64,000 nucleotides of DNA from positions 1-64,000 of the forward strand of contig NZ_JASIRT010000001.1 of assembly GCF_030063475.1 (NCBI RefSeq), read 5' to 3'. The notes under the pieces were generated by a model, which was not told where the DNA came from, searched no databases, and was given only the letters and a program-made list of their open reading frames with translations. The position numbers and the translations under genes are program-made. This document shows, piece by piece, positions 1 through 60,075 of the stretch. Numbering within the stretch: the stretch's first letter is position 1; each line of letters begins with the position of its first letter. Source of the stretch: Roseomonas sp. E05. Its GTDB lineage: Bacteria > Pseudomonadota > Alphaproteobacteria > Acetobacterales > Acetobacteraceae.

Positions 1-2
1 AC

Positions 3-104
3 AACCTCAAGCAGTTCCGTCGCGTCGCAACCCGCTACGACAAGCTCCTCGCCAACTTCCGCGGCTTCGTTCTGCTCGCCTCAATCGCCATCCTACTCCG
101 CTGA
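3..104 (+). CDS. IS5-family transposase, C-terminal fragment (cut by window edge)
   Basis: An open frame enters from the left edge and ends at TGA 102-104. The visible residues (NLKQFRRVATRYDK, then FRGFVLLASIAILLR) are the conserved tail of IS5-type transposases, which often run QFRR(I/V)ATRYDKL followed by a hydrophobic stretch. The catalytic DDE residues are outside the window, so activity cannot be judged. Confidence 0.72.
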   Translation, partial: NLKQFRRVATRYDKLLANFRGFVLLASIAILLR

Positions 105-121
105 AATCGTCACCACCGCCT
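3..121 (+). mobile_element. 3' end of an IS5-family insertion sequence
   Basis: The first 104 bases encode the last 33 residues of a transposase, starting NLKQFRRVATRYDKL and ending in a TGA at 102-104. This matches the C-terminus usual for IS5/IS4-type DDE transposases. The remainder lies upstream of the window. The right edge at about 121 is inferred, because base 123 begins a sequence that matches the second half of a dispersed chromosomal repeat. The terminal inverted repeat cannot be confirmed without the left end. Confidence 0.7.
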
Positions 122-122
122 A

Positions 123-163
123 GAGCGTTTCTCGTGAGCCTGGGCGAACGGAAAATGCTCTAG
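123..163 (+). repeat. partial copy (second hairpin) of the 106-bp dispersed repeat
   Basis: This 41-bp stretch matches the last 41 bp of the copy at 16151-16256 with a few changes. It keeps the GAGCG...TGCTCTAG hairpin ends. The first hairpin of the element is missing and IS sequence lies in its place, which suggests the IS inserted into the repeat. The CTA at 160-162 is the TAG stop codon, read on the minus strand, of the neighbouring MFS gene. Confidence 0.75.
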
Positions 164-13710: not shown

Positions 13711-13718
13711 GGGAAAGA

Positions 13719-13756
13719 CCGGGGGAAGGAATTCCCCCGGACCCCCATCTTTTTTC
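13719..13756 (+). terminator. hairpin repeat (GGGGGAAGGAATTCCCCC family) after thpR
   Basis: The stem CCGGGGGAA (13719-13727) pairs with TTCCCCCGG (13732-13740) around a GGAA loop. ACCCCCATC and a T-rich run (TTTTTTCT) follow. Essentially the same hairpin plus tail recurs at 39109-39145, and it appears inverted at 39190-39230. The layout suits an intrinsic terminator. Confidence 0.7.
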
Positions 13757-13808
13757 TGTCCGTCGGGCAACGCTTCCGCTGGCGCGCCAACTGCTCTAGG
13801 CAGAGGCC

Positions 13809-15563: not shown

Positions 15564-16144
15564 CGCTGGAAGCGGCGGCCGCGGCCGCCCGCGCCTGCAC
15601 CCGCTGCGCCGACCTGCCGCTCGGGCCGCGCCCGGTCTTTCGCGTCAGCCCGACCGCCCGGCTGCTGGTGATCGGCCAGGCGCCCGGCACCAGGGTGCAC
15701 GCAACAGGCATCCCCTGGAACGACCCTTCGGGCGACCGCCTGCGCGACTGGCTGGGCATGGACCGCGACGCCTTCTACGACGTTACGCGCATCGCCATCG
15801 TGCCGACCGGCCTCTGCTATCCCGGCCGCCTGCCGCGCGGGGGCGACGCACCGCCACGCCCGGAATGCGCACCGCTCTGGCACCCGCGCCTGATCGGGCC
15901 GATGCGCGCGCGCCGCCTGACCCTGCTGGTGGGCAGCCACGCCATCCGCAGCGTGCTGGGGCGCGCGGCGGCCGCCCAGTTGGGCGAGACGGTGCGGAAT
16001 TTCGCAACCTGCCTGCCGCGCGGCTATTTCCCGCTGCCGCATCCCTCCTGGCGCACCCGCAGCTGGGCGGCGGACCGGCCCTGGTTCGCGGCGGAGGCGC
16101 TGCCCGCCCTGCGGCGGGCGGTGACGGCGGCGCTGGACGGGTAG
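15554..16144 (+). CDS. uracil-DNA glycosylase superfamily protein
   Basis: A 196-residue protein. VIGQAPGTRVHATGIPWND and SGDRLRDWLG form the first UDG-type motif, and LPHPSWR near the end is the second (HPS). An N-terminal CTRC pair plus later cysteines could hold an iron-sulfur cluster as in family 4/5 enzymes, but this is not certain. Its catalytic competence and substrate are unknown. The ATG is inside the 3' end of cobB (ATGGACCTGA), a 10-bp overlap. A dispersed repeat follows its stop. Confidence 0.8.
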   Translation: MDLTLEAAAAAARACTRCADLPLGPRPVFRVSPTARLLVIGQAPGTRVHATGIPWNDPSGDRLRDWLGMDRDAFYDVTRIAIVPTGLCYPGRLPRGGDAPPRPECAPLWHPRLIGPMRARRLTLLVGSHAIRSVLGRAAAAQLGETVRNFATCLPRGYFPLPHPSWRTRSWAADRPWFAAEALPALRRAVTAALDG

Positions 16145-16150
16145 CGCGCC

Positions 16151-16256
16151 GGAGCAGATCCCGTTCCGATGGCATCATCGGAATGGGTGAAGATGCTCGT
16201 CAAAACAAACGGCTGGAGCGTTTTCCGTGAGCCAGGGCGAACGGGAAATGCTCTAG
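16151..16256 (+). repeat. 106-bp double-hairpin dispersed repeat, copy A
   Basis: Two hairpins lie side by side. The first runs GGAGCAGATCCCG...GATGCTC with an inner CCGATGGCATCATCGG stem. The second runs GAGCGTTTTCCGT...GGGAAATGCTC. It matches the inverted copy at 44824-44929 at 99 of 106 positions by eye. Its last bases (CTAG) contain the minus-strand TAG stop of the adjacent zincin gene. It resembles RIME- or MITE-like palindromic units. Confidence 0.88.
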
Positions 16257-16645
16257 CCCTCGCCTTCCAGCCGGGCGATCTCCTCGTCCGAGAAGCCGAA
16301 ATGGTGGCCGATCTCGTGGATCAGCACGTTGCGGACCAGGCGGAACAGGTCCTCGCCGGTCTCGATCCACTCCACCAGGATGGGCTCGCGGTAGAGCAGG
16401 ATGGTGTCCGGCTCGGCGGGGACGCCAAGATGCGTCTTCTCCGTCAGCGGCACGCCGCGATAGAGGCCGGTCAGTTCCCAGGGATGCTGGAGTTCAAGCG
16501 CCTCCAGCGTTTCCTCGTCCGGCAGGTCCTCGACGAGGATGGCCGTGCCCTGCACGGCATTGCGCAATTCCTCGGGGATGGCGGAGAAGGCCGTCTCGGC
16601 CATCTCCTGCAGGTCCTCGATCGAGGGAGGATGGTTGAAGCGCAT
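16253..16645 (-). CDS. metallopeptidase family protein (zincin-like, PF06262 type)
   Basis: A 130-residue small cytosolic protein with HEIGHHFGFSDEEIARLE near the C-terminus. This is the HExxH zinc motif in the form typical of the zincin-like family once called DUF1025. The N-terminal half (RFNHPPSIEDLQEMAETAFSAIP) also fits. The substrate is unknown. The TAG stop lies in the edge of the dispersed repeat. Confidence 0.88.
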   Translation of the reverse strand: MRFNHPPSIEDLQEMAETAFSAIPEELRNAVQGTAILVEDLPDEETLEALELQHPWELTGLYRGVPLTEKTHLGVPAEPDTILLYREPILVEWIETGEDLFRLVRNVLIHEIGHHFGFSDEEIARLEGEG

Positions 16646-16694
16646 GGGGCCATCCTAGCACCCGCCAGCGGGTGCCGCGAAGCGCCGCGTCGCG

Positions 16695-17192
16695 TCAGGG
16701 CGCGGGCGGCGGGGATGAGGGCTCGGGCCTCGCCGGCGCGGTGGAAGGCCGCACCAGCGCATCGCGGATTTCCATCAGCAGCTTTTCCTGCGTCGTCGGC
16801 GCCGGCGGCGCGGCCGGCTTGGCGGCCTGGCGCAGCCGCAGCCGGGTCAGCATGCGCAGCAGCCAGAAGATCGCCAGGGCGACGATCAGGAAGCGGATGA
16901 TGGCGTTGAGGAACACGCCGACGGCCAGCACCGCCGCGCCGCTCTGCCGGGTCGCCTCCAGCGAGGGGCCGCGCTCGCCGCTCAGCACGATGAAGACGTT
17001 GGAGAAATCCACCCCGCCGATCAGCAGGCCGAGGAGCGGATTGATCAGGTCCTGTACCAGCGAATTGACGATGCCGGTGAAGGCGGCGCCGATGACGATA
17101 CCGACCGCCAGGTCCACCACGCTGCCGCGCATGATGAAGGCCTTGAATTCCTCGAGCCAGGCCGGTTCGCGGACAGGCAGATGCGGCCGCAT
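16695..17192 (-). CDS. mscL: large-conductance mechanosensitive channel
   Basis: A 165-residue MscL. The N-terminal amphipathic helix and first membrane helix are FKAFIMRGSVVDLAVGIVIGAAFTGIV. A periplasmic loop follows, then the second helix (AVGVFLNAIIRFLIVALAIFWLL) and a cytosolic C-terminal helix bundle (TQEKLLMEIRDAL). A Pro-rich tail of about 25 residues is longer than usual. It releases solutes on hypo-osmotic shock. GGAGAAGG precedes the start at 17192. Confidence 0.95.
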   Translation of the reverse strand: MRPHLPVREPAWLEEFKAFIMRGSVVDLAVGIVIGAAFTGIVNSLVQDLINPLLGLLIGGVDFSNVFIVLSGERGPSLEATRQSGAAVLAVGVFLNAIIRFLIVALAIFWLLRMLTRLRLRQAAKPAAPPAPTTQEKLLMEIRDALVRPSTAPARPEPSSPPPAP

Positions 17193-17298: not shown

Positions 17299-17835
17299 TC
17301 AGGGCGAGGTGCGCGGCGCCGGGTTGGTCGGCGAGGCCGCGGAGGTCCCGCCCGTGCCGCTGCCCGACATGCCGCTGCCCGACGTGCCGCTGCCCGACGT
17401 GCCGCTGCCCGACATGCCGCTGCCGCCGGACATGCCGCCGCCGCCCGGGTTGCCGACGGCGGAGGACGGGGTCTGGCCCGGCGGCACCACCATGCCACCG
17501 CCCATGTAGACGTCCCCGCTGCCGGAGCGCGAGGAGGAGCGATTGCTCCGGCGGCTGCTCCGGTTGTTGTCCAGCGGGGTCTGAACCTCCGGGTCCTTCC
17601 AGAGCGGCCGGCCGAGATTCACATCGCCCGGCGAGGTCGTGGCGCCGGTCACGGCACCCGCGCCGCCACCGACCAGCGCACCCACCGCCGCGCCCGCGGG
17701 ACCGCCCAGCGCACCGATGCCGGCGCCGGTCGCCGCACCCGCGGCCGCGCCGCCCTGGACGCGCTCGCGCTCGTTGGTCCCACAGGCGGCCAGAGCCAGC
17801 GCCAGCGCAGCAGCACTCAAGATTCGCAGCTTCAT
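17299..17835 (-). CDS. glycine-zipper lipoprotein with short tandem repeats
   Basis: A 178-residue lipoprotein with signal MKLRILSAAALALALAAC. A Gly/Ala-rich stretch (GAAAGAATGAGIGALGGPAG...) resembles glycine-zipper outer-membrane proteins. A Ser/Arg segment (RSSRRSNRSSSRS) follows, and then Gly/Ser/Thr-rich repeats (GMSGS/GTSGS). The repeats come from four 15-bp DNA units at 17356-17415. The function is unknown. Confidence 0.75.
   Translation of the reverse strand: MKLRILSAAALALALAACGTNERERVQGGAAAGAATGAGIGALGGPAGAAVGALVGGGAGAVTGATTSPGDVNLGRPLWKDPEVQTPLDNNRSSRRSNRSSSRSGSGDVYMGGGMVVPPGQTPSSAVGNPGGGGMSGGSGMSGSGTSGSGTSGSGMSGSGTGGTSAASPTNPAPRTSP
17356..17415. repeat. four tandem 15-bp units in the lipoprotein gene
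   Basis: The units GCCGCTGCCCGACAT / GACGT run head to tail from 17356. The four copies differ only at one position, and a degenerate fifth follows. On the coding strand they give MSGSG/TSGSG. The whole-codon unit means copy-number change would keep the frame. Confidence 0.8.
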
Positions 17836-39103: not shown

Positions 39104-39108
39104 AAAAA

Positions 39109-39145
39109 GTCTGGGGGAAGGAATTCCCCCAGACCCCCATCTTCT
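39109..39145 (+). terminator. hairpin repeat after the molybdoenzyme gene
   Basis: GTCTGGGGGAA (39109-39119) pairs with TTCCCCCAGAC (39124-39134) around GGAA. CCCCATCTTCTTTCTT follows. The sequence and its tail closely match the hairpin after thpR. It begins 5 bp past the stop codon. Confidence 0.75.
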
Positions 39146-39189
39146 TTCTTCAAGTCTCCGGCGCTTGCGGTGAGGCGGAGCCAAACTGG

Positions 39190-41661: not shown

Positions 41662-42255
41662 ATGACGACGACTTCCCCGACCGCCCGCAAGGCTGGCCTG
41701 CGCTGGCACCTGCGCACGGCGACCCAGGACCTGCACGCGGAGGCCGACCGGCTCGGCCAGGGCTTCGACCTGCGCAGCCGGGCGGGCTACCGCAGCTTCC
41801 TCCGCGCCCATGCGCGCGCCCTGCCCGCGCTGGAAGCGGCCTGCGATGCCGCCGGACTGGAGCAGATGGTGCCGGACTGGCCGCAGCGCCGGCGCCGCAC
41901 GGCGCTGGAGGCGGACCTGGCGCGGCTGGGCGCCGCCTTGCCGCCGGCCGGGCGCGTGACACTTCCCTCCGGGCCTGCCGCGCTGGGCGCCGCCTATGTT
42001 CTGGAAGGCTCCCGGCTCGGTAACGCCATGCTTCTTCGCATCATCCAAAACGCATCAGCCCTCGCGAATGTCAGCGCAACCGCCTATCTCTCGCATATGC
42101 CCGGCCCGGAAGGCTGGCCCGGTTTCCTCGGCCGCCTGGAACAGGCCCTGCCGGAACCCACCCACTGGGCCGAGGCCACCGCCGGCGCGCGCCTTGCCTT
42201 CGACTGTTTCCTGATGGCCATGCACCGAGAAAGGATGGCTCCCCTGCATGCATGA
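41662..42255 (+). CDS. bphO: bacteriophytochrome heme oxygenase (BphO)
   Basis: A 197-residue heme oxygenase. The proximal histidine lies in LRTATQDLHAEADRL, and the distal helix is LGAAYVLEGSRLGNAMLL (GSxLG). It opens heme to biliverdin, the chromophore of the next gene's product. The gene overlaps bphP by 8 bp, so synthesis of chromophore and apoprotein is coupled. ATG 41662 has AGCGGA upstream; ATG 41632 is an alternative. Confidence 0.9.
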   Translation: MTTTSPTARKAGLRWHLRTATQDLHAEADRLGQGFDLRSRAGYRSFLRAHARALPALEAACDAAGLEQMVPDWPQRRRRTALEADLARLGAALPPAGRVTLPSGPAALGAAYVLEGSRLGNAMLLRIIQNASALANVSATAYLSHMPGPEGWPGFLGRLEQALPEPTHWAEATAGARLAFDCFLMAMHRERMAPLHA

Positions 42256-44827
42256 TGATCTCGGCGAACTGGCGCTGCCCGCTGGCGTTGATCTGACCAA
42301 TTGCGACCGCGAGCCCATCCATCTCCTCGGGACCATCCAGCCGATCGGCTTCCTGGTCGCGGTCTCGACGGACTGGATCGTGCGGCGGGCCTCGGCCAAT
42401 GCCGGCGAGCACCTGAGCCGGAGCACGGAAACCCTGCTGGGCGAATCCCTCACGGCGCTGCTGAGCCGCGAGGCGATGCACCAGATCGGCGGGCGGCTGC
42501 ACCTGCTGCGCGGCGCCAATGCGGTGGAGCGGCTGTTCGGCGTCGCACTGTGTGAAGGCGGCATCCCCTACGACCTCGCCATCCATCTCTCGGACGACCT
42601 GATCGTGCTGGAAGGCGAGCCCTCCGACCTGGAGGACGCGCTGGAAGCCGGCAACACCGTGCGCGGCATGCTCTCCCGCCTGCACCAGGCGGAGGGCTTC
42701 GAGGGCATCTGCCGCGAGGCGGTGCGGCAGATCCGCGGCCTCACCGGCTTCAACCGCGTCATGCTCTACCGCTTCGACCATGGCGGCGCGGGCGAGGTGA
42801 TCGCCGAATCGGCGGCGAGCTTCCTGCCCTCCTTCATGGGGCTGCACTTCCCGGCCTCCGACATCCCGCGGCAGGCACGGAAGCTCTACGAACGCACCTG
42901 GCTGCGCCTGATCGGCGACACCGAGGCGCCGCCGGTGCCGGTGCTGCCGCTGCTCGATGCCCGCCGGCAGCCGCTCGACCTCTCGCTCAGCGTGCTGCGC
43001 AGCGTCTCGCCGATCCATATCGAGTACCTGCGCAACATGGGCGTGCAGGCCTCCATGTCGGTCTCGGTGCTGCGCAAGGGGCGGCTCTGGGGGCTGATCG
43101 CCTGCCACCACAATGAGCCGCTGCGCGTCTCCTTCGAGCGCCGCACCGCCGCCGAGCTGTTCGGGCAGGTGTTCTCGCTGGTGCTGGAGAGCCGCGAGCG
43201 CGAGGCCGACCAGGCGCGCGAGGCCGAGGCCAACCGGGTGCACCAGCAGCTGATGGCGGCGCTGGGCGCCATGCGGCCGGGCAGCCAGTCGCTCACCGAG
43301 TTCCTGGAGCTGCTCTCCGAGGTGATCCCCTGCGACGGCATCGGCCTATGGAGCAAACGCGGCACCGCGATGCGCGGCCATGCGCCGACCATCGAGGAGT
43401 TCTCCGGCCTGGTCCGCTTCCTGAACCGGACGGCCTCGGGCACGATCTACGCCACCCACCGGCTGGGCGAGATGTACCCGCCGGCAAGCGAGTTCGCCGA
43501 GCGCACGGCGGGGCTGCTGGCCATCCCCCTCTCCCGTACTCCGCGCGACTATCTCGTCTTCTTCCGCCGCGCCGTGACGCATTCCGTCACCTGGGCGGGC
43601 GACCCGCACAAGCCGGTGGCGCTCGGCCCCAACGGCGCGCGGCTGACCCCGCGCAAGAGCTTCGCCGCCTGGCAGGAGACGGTCGAGGGCCAGAGCCGCC
43701 CCTGGGCCGAGAGCGACCTGCTGATGGCCGAGCGCCTGCGGGTGACGCTGCTGGAGGTGGTGCTGCAGCTCACCGACCTCGCGGAGCGCGAGCGGCAGGC
43801 GGCGCAGGAGCGGCAGGAGATCCTGATCGCCGAGCTGAACCACCGCGTGCGCAACATCCTCGGCCTGATCCGCGGCCTGGTGACGCAGAGCCGCGGCCAT
43901 GCCGCCACGGTGGACGAGTTCGCCGAGATGGTGGGCGGGCGCATCCAGGCCCTCGCCCGTGCGCATGACCAGATCACCACCGACCGCTGGCGCCCGGCGC
44001 CGCTGGACGAGCTGATCCGCGCCGAGGCGGAGGCCTACCTGAACGGCCAGACCGACCGGCTGCGCCTCTCCGGCCCGCCGGTGCTGCTGGAGCCGGGCGC
44101 CTATACCACCCTGGCGCTCGTCATCCACGAGATGATGACCAATGCCGCCAAGTACGGGGCGCTGTGCGACCGGAGCGGGCGCGTGAGCGTGCGCTGGGAC
44201 TTCACCGGCAACGCGGACCTGGAGATCCACTGGATCGAGGAGGGCGGCCCCCCGGTGAAGCCGCCGATGCGCCAGGGCTTCGGCACCACCATCGTCGAGC
44301 GCGCCCTGCCGCACGACCTGAAGGGTGAGGCCGAGCTGCACTACAAGCTCTCCGGCATGGAGGCCCGCTTCCTGCTGCCGGCCGACTGCGTCCACCGCGG
44401 CGAGGGGGGCGGCCGGATGCCGGAACTGTCCTCCGCCCGGCCGGAGGCTCCACAGGAGGACATTTTCGCGCTTTCCGGCCGGGTGCTGCTGGTCGAGGAC
44501 AACCTGCTGATCGCGATGGATGCCGAGGACCAGCTCCGCCGCATGGGCGCGACGGAGGTGGACGTGGCGAGCAGCGTGCAGGCCGCCCTGCGGCTGCTGG
44601 AGCACGCTCCGCCGCAGATCGCGCTGCTGGATGTCAATCTCGGCCGTGAAAGCAGCTTTCCCGTGGCGGATGCGCTGACGGCCCGGGGCATCCCCTTCAT
44701 CTTCGCCACCGGCTATGGCGAGACCAATGCCTTCCCGGACCGCTTCCGCAGCGCGGAGGTGGTCGGCAAGCCCTATACGGCGACGGAGGTGCGGCAGGCG
44801 CTGCAGCGCCGGCTGTCCGGCCGCTAG
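42248..44827 (+). CDS. bphP: bacteriophytochrome HWE histidine kinase fused to receiver domain
   Basis: An 859-residue light sensor. The order is PAS (Cys19 in TNCDREPIHLLGTIQPIG, the biliverdin-attachment position), GAF (PASDIP at 202-207) and PHY (tongue region PRKSFAAWQETVEG). An HWE/HisKA_2 kinase follows (His532 in ELNHRVRN; W-x-E in IHWIEEGGP). A C-terminal receiver comes last (VEDN, Asp795 in LLDVNLG, Lys in VVGKPY). Red/far-red light probably controls autophosphorylation and transfer to its own receiver. The output regulator is not evident. It overlaps bphO. Its TAG stop lies in a dispersed repeat. Confidence 0.94.
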   Translation: MHDDLGELALPAGVDLTNCDREPIHLLGTIQPIGFLVAVSTDWIVRRASANAGEHLSRSTETLLGESLTALLSREAMHQIGGRLHLLRGANAVERLFGVALCEGGIPYDLAIHLSDDLIVLEGEPSDLEDALEAGNTVRGMLSRLHQAEGFEGICREAVRQIRGLTGFNRVMLYRFDHGGAGEVIAESAASFLPSFMGLHFPASDIPRQARKLYERTWLRLIGDTEAPPVPVLPLLDARRQPLDLSLSVLRSVSPIHIEYLRNMGVQASMSVSVLRKGRLWGLIACHHNEPLRVSFERRTAAELFGQVFSLVLESREREADQAREAEANRVHQQLMAALGAMRPGSQSLTEFLELLSEVIPCDGIGLWSKRGTAMRGHAPTIEEFSGLVRFLNRTASGTIYATHRLGEMYPPASEFAERTAGLLAIPLSRTPRDYLVFFRRAVTHSVTWAGDPHKPVALGPNGARLTPRKSFAAWQETVEGQSRPWAESDLLMAERLRVTLLEVVLQLTDLAERERQAAQERQEILIAELNHRVRNILGLIRGLVTQSRGHAATVDEFAEMVGGRIQALARAHDQITTDRWRPAPLDELIRAEAEAYLNGQTDRLRLSGPPVLLEPGAYTTLALVIHEMMTNAAKYGALCDRSGRVSVRWDFTGNADLEIHWIEEGGPPVKPPMRQGFGTTIVERALPHDLKGEAELHYKLSGMEARFLLPADCVHRGEGGGRMPELSSARPEAPQEDIFALSGRVLLVEDNLLIAMDAEDQLRRMGATEVDVASSVQAALRLLEHAPPQIALLDVNLGRESSFPVADALTARGIPFIFATGYGETNAFPDRFRSAEVVGKPYTATEVRQALQRRLSGR

Positions 44828-44929
44828 AGCATTTTCCGTTCGCTCCGGCTCACGGAAAACGCTCCAACTGTTTGTTTTTAAGAGCATCTTCACCCATTCC
44901 GATGATGCCATCGGAACGGGATCTGCTCC
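44824..44929 (-). repeat. 106-bp double-hairpin dispersed repeat, copy B (inverted)
   Basis: The reverse complement matches copy A at 16151-16256 over its full length, with seven differences seen by eye. The CTAG end overlaps the bphP stop (TAG 44825-44827). The hairpin nearest the gene is AGCATTTTCCGT/ACGGAAAACGCT, placed where a terminator would be. Confidence 0.88.
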
Positions 44930-44950
44930 AGGCCGCGTCGGCCCGCCGCC

Positions 44951-57777: not shown

Positions 57778-60075
57778 ATGACTCTACTGGGCGTATACGT
57801 CGGCAACGACGCCGAAGCCGTCGATGAGTTCGAATCCTGGCTCGGCAGCGACGTTGATCTGGTCCATGCCGTGGTGGGCAGCGCCAGCTGGACCGACTTC
57901 ACCAGCAGCGCCTCCTGGATGATCAACACGCTCTGGAGCGGCGTGGATGCCGACCTGCTCTGGTCCGTCCCGCTGATCGTGGATGACGGCTCGGCGAGCC
58001 TCGCGACGGCCGCGACCGGCGCCTACAACGACTACTACCGCAGCGTCGCCGAGACGCTGGCCAGCAGCACCGACGGCGATGGGCCGATCTACATTCGCAC
58101 GGGCTGGGAGTTCAACGGCGACTGGTTCGCCTGGTCCGCCGAGGGGAACGAGGAAGCCTATATCGAGGCCTACCGCCAGTTCGTGGACACCTTCCGCAGC
58201 GTCTCGGACCGTTTCGTCTTCGAGTGGTGCGTGGACGCCGCCTCCGGCGGCATGGACCCTTCCACCGCCTATCCCGGCGACGACTATGTCGACATCATCG
58301 GCATGGATTTCTACTGGAAGACGGAATACAGCGGCACCGACCCGGTGGCCGCCTTCGAGGACATGGCCTACCGCGAATACGGCCTGCAGTGGCTGGAGGA
58401 CTTCGCCGCCGCGCACGGCAAGCCGACCGCCTATTCCGAATGGGGCGTCAGCACCGACAACGCGGCGGAATACATCGAGCTGGTGAACGAGTGGTTCGAC
58501 AGCCACGACGTCGTCTATCAGTCCTATTGGGACTCCGACGCCGCCTACGAGGGCAAGCTGTCGGACGGTTCCAACGCCGATAGCGGCGCGGCCTATCAGG
58601 AGCTTTTCGCCGGCAGTGGCGAGACGAGCGACGACACGCCCGCCTCCGGCACCACGGCCGACACCACCGCCGTGGTGGCCGACAGCACGAGCGACACCGC
58701 AGCCACGACGGACACCACGACCGACACCACCACGGCCGACGCCATCGTCGCGGCGAGCACGACAACCGATCCGGCCACCCTGGCGGCCAGTGCCGATCCG
58801 AGCCGTTGGTTCTACGGCACCAGCGCCACCGAGAGCTGGACCGGCACCTCCGGCAATGACGGCTACAAGTCGGTCGGCGGCGGCGACACCATGGCGGGCG
58901 GCCTCGGCGACGACACCTACGTCATCTATTCCGCCAGCGACACCGTCGTGGAGAACACCGGCGCCGGCACCGACACCGTGCAGACCTGGCTCTCCAGCTA
59001 CACCCTGCCGGACAACGTCGAGAACCTCGTCATCACCGGCACCTCCTGGACCGCCGCCACCGGCAATGCGCTGGACAACCGCATCACCGGCAATGCTTCG
59101 CCCAACACGATCAATGGCGCCGGCGGCGCCGACCTGCTGACCGGTGGTGGCGGCGCCGATACCTTCGTCATCGCCGTGGGCGAGGGCGGCGACACCATCA
59201 CCGACTTCTCCGCCACGGAGGGCGACCAGCTGCAGCTCCAGGGCTTCGGCGACGGCGCCAGCCTGACGCATCAGGGCGGCCTCTGGACCGTCACCGCCGC
59301 CGATGGCGAAACCACCAGCTTCACCCTCTCCGGCGTGAGCAGCCTCGCGGACGGCACCTACAGCTTCACGGGCTCCGCCAGCGTCATGGCGGCGAGCACC
59401 ACGGCCTCCACCGCCGCGACGGCCGATGCAAGCACGGCCGACGCCACCGTCGCGGCGAGCACGACAACCGATCCGGCCACCCTGGCGGCCAGTGCCGATC
59501 CGAGCCGTTGGTTCTACGGCACCAGCGCCACCGAGAGCTGGACCGGCACCTCCGGCAATGACGGCTACAAGTCGGTCGGCGGCGGCGACACCATGGCGGG
59601 CGGCCTCGGCGACGACACCTACGTCATCTATTCCGCCAGCGACACCGTCGTGGAGAACACCGGCGCCGGCACCGACACCGTGCAGACCTGGCTCTCCAGC
59701 TACACCCTGCCGGACAACGTCGAGAACCTCGTCATCACCGGCACCTCCTGGACCGCCGCCACCGGCAATGCGCTGGACAACCGCATCACCGGCAATGCCT
59801 CGCCCAACACGATCAATGGCGCCGGCGGCGCCGACCTGCTGACCGGTGGCGGCGGCGCCGACACCTTCGTCGTCGCCATGGGCGAGGGCGGCGACACCAT
59901 CACCGACTTCTCCGCCACGGAGGGCGACCAGCTGCAGCTCCAGGGCTTCGGCGACGGCGCCAGCCTGACGCATCAGGGCGGCCTCTGGACCGTCACCGCC
60001 GCCGATGGCGAAACCACCAGCTTCACCCTCTCCGGCGTGAGCAGCCTCGCGGACGGCGACTACCTCTTCTCCTGA
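57778..60075 (+). CDS. GH26-like glycosidase with duplicated RTX calcium-binding modules, type I secreted
   Basis: A 765-residue protein with no N-terminal signal. Residues 1-280 form a TIM-barrel glycosidase resembling GH26. Glu111 in TGWEFNGDWF is the likely acid/base. Glu221 in YSEWG is the likely nucleophile. YPGDDYVDIIGMDFYW lies between. A Thr/Asp-rich linker follows. Two RTX modules (GGLGDDTYVIY, GGGGADTFV) come next, each about 208 residues and almost identical. The C-terminal secretion signal is expected in the last residues (SLADGDYLFS). No T1SS genes are nearby. Beta-mannan or a related polymer is the likely substrate by family. ATG 57775 is an alternative start. Confidence 0.85.
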   Translation: MTLLGVYVGNDAEAVDEFESWLGSDVDLVHAVVGSASWTDFTSSASWMINTLWSGVDADLLWSVPLIVDDGSASLATAATGAYNDYYRSVAETLASSTDGDGPIYIRTGWEFNGDWFAWSAEGNEEAYIEAYRQFVDTFRSVSDRFVFEWCVDAASGGMDPSTAYPGDDYVDIIGMDFYWKTEYSGTDPVAAFEDMAYREYGLQWLEDFAAAHGKPTAYSEWGVSTDNAAEYIELVNEWFDSHDVVYQSYWDSDAAYEGKLSDGSNADSGAAYQELFAGSGETSDDTPASGTTADTTAVVADSTSDTAATTDTTTDTTTADAIVAASTTTDPATLAASADPSRWFYGTSATESWTGTSGNDGYKSVGGGDTMAGGLGDDTYVIYSASDTVVENTGAGTDTVQTWLSSYTLPDNVENLVITGTSWTAATGNALDNRITGNASPNTINGAGGADLLTGGGGADTFVIAVGEGGDTITDFSATEGDQLQLQGFGDGASLTHQGGLWTVTAADGETTSFTLSGVSSLADGTYSFTGSASVMAASTTASTAATADASTADATVAASTTTDPATLAASADPSRWFYGTSATESWTGTSGNDGYKSVGGGDTMAGGLGDDTYVIYSASDTVVENTGAGTDTVQTWLSSYTLPDNVENLVITGTSWTAATGNALDNRITGNASPNTINGAGGADLLTGGGGADTFVVAMGEGGDTITDFSATEGDQLQLQGFGDGASLTHQGGLWTVTAADGETTSFTLSGVSSLADGDYLFS
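58731..59355 (+). repeat. RTX-module duplication, first copy
   Basis: This 625-bp segment recurs 702 bp downstream with about six base differences that I can see. It codes one linker-plus-RTX module from AIVAASTTTDPATL to SSLADG. The differences change only a few residues (for example VIAVGE to VVAMGE). Confidence 0.92.
59433..60057 (+). repeat. RTX-module duplication, second copy
   Basis: This is the direct repeat of 58731-59355. The spacing of 702 bp is a whole number of codons (234). The second copy is followed by only six more codons before the stop, so the duplication places the module at the extreme C-terminus. Confidence 0.92.

Follow-up and report, generated by a model that had tools for sequence, protein, structure and literature searches.

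Repeat copies and adjacent genes in the window

The window, a 64,000-nucleotide stretch at the start of contig NZ_JASIRT010000001.1 of Roseomonas sp. E05, contains two full copies and one half copy of a dispersed double-hairpin repeat, each of which meets the end of a gene. The gene names used here (zincin, MFS and bphP) are those of a first-pass annotation made from the sequence, and fit the sequences only as judged by eye. The relevant features are:

1–119, forward strand: 3' end of a multi-copy insertion sequence (IS) ending in ..ATCGTCACCACCGC, inserted in a CTAG; the contig starts inside this IS
120–163, forward strand: right half of a full repeat copy into whose internal CTAG the IS has inserted; the left half opens contig C20
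160–162, reverse strand: TAG stop of the MFS gene (160–1503, reverse), in the CTAG edge of the half copy
16142–16144, forward strand: TAG stop of the left-hand neighbouring gene of copy 1, a few bases outside the element and not in its edge
16149–16256, forward strand: full copy 1 of the double-hairpin repeat, a putative MITE; the left edge has changed to CCGG and the right edge is CTAG
16160–16187, forward strand: arm 1 of copy 1, 12-bp stem and 4-nt loop
16213–16256, forward strand: arm 2 of copy 1, ~16-bp stem
16253–16255, reverse strand: TAG stop of the zincin gene (16253–16645, reverse), in the right-edge CTAG of copy 1
44824–44931, reverse strand: full copy 2 of the putative MITE; the left edge has changed to CTGG and the right edge is CTAG
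44825–44827, forward strand: TAG stop of the bphP-type gene (42248–44827, forward), in the right-edge CTAG of copy 2

The first-pass annotation had recognized these three copies, and they are real, with a chance expectation of ~0 core-motif matches in the window; its repeat length of 106 bp falls short of the full element (108 bp), and its 41-bp half copy at 123–163 is present but extends over 44 bp. Counted genome-wide, as had been proposed, the repeat has 40 copies in the host assembly (5.73 Mb, 109 contigs), with precise 108-bp ends and 84–100% identity to the window copy; one of these (L039) is truncated, and single-hairpin derivatives of ~50–68 bp are also found. Being short, non-coding and present in many near-identical copies with precise ends, the repeat has the general features of a MITE. 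No family was matched at gathering in an Rfam search (the single sub-threshold match is due to chance), and a search of plasmid DNA with the repeat returned only three partial matches, from Acetobacteraceae.

The 108-bp consensus (CTAGAGCAGATCCCG...GATGCTC-GTCAAAACAAACGG-CTGGAGCG...GCTCTAG) is composed of two hairpin arms and a linker. The loop of arm 1 in copy 1 is at the position where class-wide relatives have GANTC, arm 2 has a conserved asymmetric core (GTGAGCC..GCGAACGG), and the element ends in TA-GAGC, with a G directly after the TA at either end. Both arms fold among 16 copies from the genus, and compensatory changes in these copies preserve pairing at 12 of 32 pairs over both arms.

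It had also been suggested that part of the repeat can be misread as a small protein beginning MASSEWVKML. Such frames exist but are longer than this implies, in that they begin inside the repeat and continue antisense through the neighbouring genes (16169–16900, forward, 243 codons; 43346–44911, reverse, 521 codons). No match to the MASSEWVKML small protein was found in plasmid records.

Target site and a candidate transposase

Edges of the repeat that keep the TA have a pyrimidine outside it on the left and a purine outside it on the right, including one matched TTAG/CTAA pair, and class-wide edges agree with this Y/R rule but with more T and A. The target is thus YTAR, here mostly CTAG, with duplication of the TA. 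Searching relatives with joined flanks revealed five element-free sites in the close relative G005, of which three (L002, L013 and L017) have alignable flanks and a single intact CTAG; the other two have diverged, one to CAG and one to CTAC. The TA is thus duplicated at occupied sites and single at the three intact empty ones, as is characteristic of an IS630-type MITE.

An IS630-family element of 1.05 kb is present twice, in identical form, on contig C38; it has DDE_3 and HTH_Tnp_IS630 domains in two frames, and its ends (TA-GAGCGGTTTCCG) sit in YTAR sites. The ends of the repeat (TA-GAGCATTTTCCGTTC and TA-GAGCAGATCCCGTTC) are close to these, and the shared TA-GAGC core provides the likeness in terminal repeats to a resident IS630-family element that is typical of IS630-type MITEs; past this core the match is partial (~12–13 of 16 bases). 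Related IS630 elements in three other genomes (G010, G069 and G123) also start with TA-GAGC; the remaining end-motif matches, in contigs C6 and C21, were judged to be chance. IS630/Tc1/mariner transposases duplicate TA (PMC2170065), and IS630 of Shigella sonnei inserts at the TA in CTAG, according to a title cited there (Tenzen & Ohtsubo 1991); the target is the same as that of the repeat, but the Shigella element is an autonomous IS and not a MITE. From the end sequences we infer that an IS630 transposase moves the repeat, and that the resident IS630-family element is its likely mobiliser. The C38 transposase has no match at E 1e-20 in G005, the closest many-copy relative, and the mover in that genome is therefore either a different element or has been lost. 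The mosaic of single and double hairpins recalls REP/BIME-like palindromes spread by a RAYT (Y1) transposase, but inverted ends and a YTAR target with duplicated TA point to a DDE (IS630) transposase instead, and we consider the RAYT reading scarcely credible.

The half copy and its adjoining insertion sequence

The IS at the left end of the window looks by eye like a member of the IS5 family, and a profile search gave no match. It is found at 18 contig ends, of which nine adjoin the repeat family by manual reading. The left half of a repeat copy at the start of contig C20 meets the other end of the same IS at its internal CTAG, and C20 sequence lies ~50 bp from the MFS gene in G005, and the half copy is thus one half of a full copy split by the IS. 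A similar relationship is known in Brucella, where IS711, which inserts in YTAR with duplication of TA, has Bru-RS repeats as hot spots and prefers them (PMC2266754). Repeat copies L003 and L004 are identical and have unlike left flanks with the same IS end after both, reflecting either recent transposition or a joint unit of MITE and IS.

Since IS5-family elements (IS427- or IS711-like) are also YTAR/CTAG-targeting, such an element could be proposed as the mover of the repeat; the IS inserts in CTAG, it abuts the repeat at half of its contig-end sites (9/18), and IS711 offers the Brucella parallel. Its ends (GTGGTGGTGACGATTT / ..ATCGTCACCACCGC) are unlike those of the repeat, though, and it interrupts repeat copies at their internal CTAG. 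We rejected it as the mover on the mismatch of the ends, and regard this explanation as quite improbable.

Several other repeats are also present. A second palindrome (TGCCCTGATCGCGAAGT../ CTAGTGTCCTGCCCGCGAA..TTCGCGGGCAGGACACTAG) with CTAG ends adjoins copies of the repeat (in the flanks of L006, L026 and L034, and at L122) and is possibly another CTAG-targeting MITE. A different dispersed repeat, GGGGGAAGGAATTCCCCC..CCCCCATCTTTTTTCT with a T-run, is present at 13714–13757 and 39106–39149, and sequence similar to it lies beside two copies of the putative MITE, L019 and L033, as well as beside an IS site. The window also has direct repeats of 300 bp each at 58695–58994 and 59397–59696 (95% identical, 702 bp apart), and 15-bp tandem units (CGTGCCGCTGCCCGA) at 17353–17427 that probably encode a short peptide repeat within a gene.

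Stop codons at the repeat edges

As had been described in the first-pass annotation, the edge TAG is the in-frame stop of the zincin, bphP-type and MFS genes at all three window sites. When genes around the 40 genomic copies were called by codon usage with a home-made gene caller, the TAG or TAA of the edge proved to be an in-frame gene stop at 24 edges in 23 copies, always within the same 4 bases; none of the called genes reads across an edge in a different frame. Five of these 23 copies depend on short or low-scoring frames, and a strict count of well-scoring genes gives 19 edges in 18/40 copies. At L037 a single copy provides the stops of two convergent genes, which presumably had one CTAG in common. 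When open frames of at least 100 codons are tallied independently of the gene caller, the result agrees, with 33 arrivals at an edge in the TAG frame as opposed to 15 and 21 in the remaining two frames.

To gauge how many target sites are available, 244 kb of the host genome was analysed with the home-made gene caller. CTAG occurs only once inside genes in this sample, and among YTAR or CTAG sites that are non-coding and outside repeats 5–11% are stop codons; with repeats left in, the share is 11–19%. The observed share at stops is 18–23 of 40 copies (45–58%) against the 5–11% expected from random insertion (p <=1e-7), and the excess is therefore real. The earlier suggestion of insertion at gene ends is borne out, and the bias towards stops exceeds what the supply of target sites explains. 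The constant orientation of the repeat relative to the stop, which is seen at 3/3 sites in the window, does not extend to the genome, where stops lie at 13 left and 11 right edges with no orientation rule.

The excess at gene 3' ends, together with strong hairpins that show compensatory changes, is also what could be expected if selection maintained the repeat for terminating transcription or stabilising mRNA at the 3' end and its location at stops reflected that function, a role that the first-pass annotation had raised. Nonetheless, a terminator scan found no GC-rich hairpin followed by a T-run in the repeat and no terminator-like site, left and right edges carry stops equally, the position of the stop within the same 4 bases leaves none of the spacing variation expected with terminators, and the element is absent from most orthologues. 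With no T-run and no orientation bias, such a role is unsupported, and we think it improbable.

Relative age of the stop codons

In orthologues from other genomes of the genus, the majority of which lack the element, the zincin gene ends at the same codon in 16/16 cases and the gene at L023 in 12/12, mostly with TGA for both. The possibility raised earlier, that orthologues without the repeat might end at another stop, is thus contradicted for these two genes, with the same stop position and unchanged protein length in 28/28 element-free orthologues. For most other genes, the orthologue ends are identical or within a few codons, with the widest variation in the bphP-type gene (–2 to +14). In G005, the MFS gene stops at the same codon, the zincin orthologue ends GGC-TAG and has no element there, and the empty site corresponding to L002 has the same in-frame CTAG/TAG stop.

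Orthologue ends and element-free sites with CTAG together show that the stop codon predates the insertion. The first-pass annotation had the repeat supplying the stop of its neighbour; this is accurate in that the first base of the element completes a regenerated TAG, but the stop was not created by the element, as orthologues without it stop at or near the same codon. Insertion might instead have made new stops by truncating or extending genes, and the TAG in use does sit in the edge of the element, while the TGA of most orthologues means that the codon changed at some point. Against this stand the same lengths in both genes compared throughout, the agreement within a few codons for most others, and the same in-frame TAG at the L002 empty site; the proposal is largely refuted by the orthologue ends, and we regard it as very unlikely.

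Relationship to known repeat families

A covariance model of the repeat has matches in 23 of 288 other sampled genomes of the class, in 19 other families. All 18 class-wide homologues examined in full have two arms and a linker, and 16 of them contain GANTC, which in 11 is located at the arm-1 loop (position 24). GANTC is present in three copies from other genomes of the genus and in none of the 40 host copies (0/40). Loss of CcrM was rejected as the cause of the missing GANTC, because a CcrM-type gene with a RAMA domain is present in 19/19 genomes of the genus. In another 40 copies from across the class, 23 have an edge that terminates, in the TAG frame, an open frame of at least 100 codons, and long frames at these edges fall in the TAG frame at 31 edges versus 17 for the two other frames combined. 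The habit is not uniform, with one of seven copies in G069 showing it.

The nearest known repeats are CIR, RIME1 and Bru-RS. RIME1, the Rhizobium intergenic mosaic element (Osteras 1995), is reportedly ~108 bp with two large palindromes; we offer this likeness, in length and form only, as a lead. CIR, the CcrM-associated intergenic repeats of Caulobacter and Brucella (Chen & Shapiro 2003, via Delihas 2008, PMC2229807), are described in that review as abundant, intergenic in Alphaproteobacteria and ~110 bp long, with two long inverted-repeat arms, a linker and TA termini. Compared by this description the repeat is similar in its length (~110 bp), arms, linker and TA termini, and the class-wide homologues also carry GANTC, whereas the window lineage does not. 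Because GANTC was looked for and is absent here, and the CIR likeness rests on a published description, we do not file the repeat as a CIR; it is instead a GANTC-less variant of the CIR/RIME1/Bru-RS kind, likened by description. Bru-RS1 and Bru-RS2 of Brucella (Halling & Bricker 1994) are 103 and 106 bp long (PMC10800456), and resemble the repeat in length and palindromic form, the only attributes compared; Bru-RS is also a hot spot for a YTAR-targeting IS (IS711; PMC2266754), and here an IS uses the CTAG of the repeat.

RUP of Streptococcus pneumoniae, a 107-bp MITE with a TA target and ends like those of the resident IS630-Spn1 (PMC2229807), has the same working mode and is a precedent for a MITE moved in this way. 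It belongs to another phylum and does not have the two arms and linker, and a stop-codon excess is not described for it in the available text of the review.

A model for insertion at stop codons

We propose, with a probability of about 0.86, that the repeat is a non-autonomous, two-armed MITE of the IS630 type and the CIR/RIME1/Bru-RS kind, with a YTAR target, an IS630 source and harmless insertion at stops. Such a MITE would insert into YTAR, mostly CTAG, and duplicate the TA, and its transposase would probably be that of the resident IS630-family element, which shares its end motif. At either end the TA is followed by a G of the repeat, so that landing in a TAR stop codon would be harmless, TA plus G re-forming TAG for genes reading in from either side. 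Such harmless insertions would survive, giving the 45–58% of copies now on a stop codon, and selection rather than targeting would then make stops the commonest surviving site. A broader version, that the class-wide CIR/RIME/Bru-RS family as a whole is an IS630-driven MITE with TAR stops as its main safe harbour, and that the excess may reflect active targeting of gene ends, we advance only tentatively.

Two cautions for annotation follow from these repeats: hairpins adjacent to stops should not pass as terminators, and open frames that begin inside the repeat continue antisense for long distances through the adjoining genes. The CIR review (PMC2229807) calls the mechanism of mobility unknown; for the repeat, a target site, empty sites in a relative and a candidate IS can now be given. 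The model would explain how a class-wide repeat family spreads whose mobility is unexplained in that review, name a transposase that can be tested, and show by what simple means a mobile element may occupy stop codons without harm.
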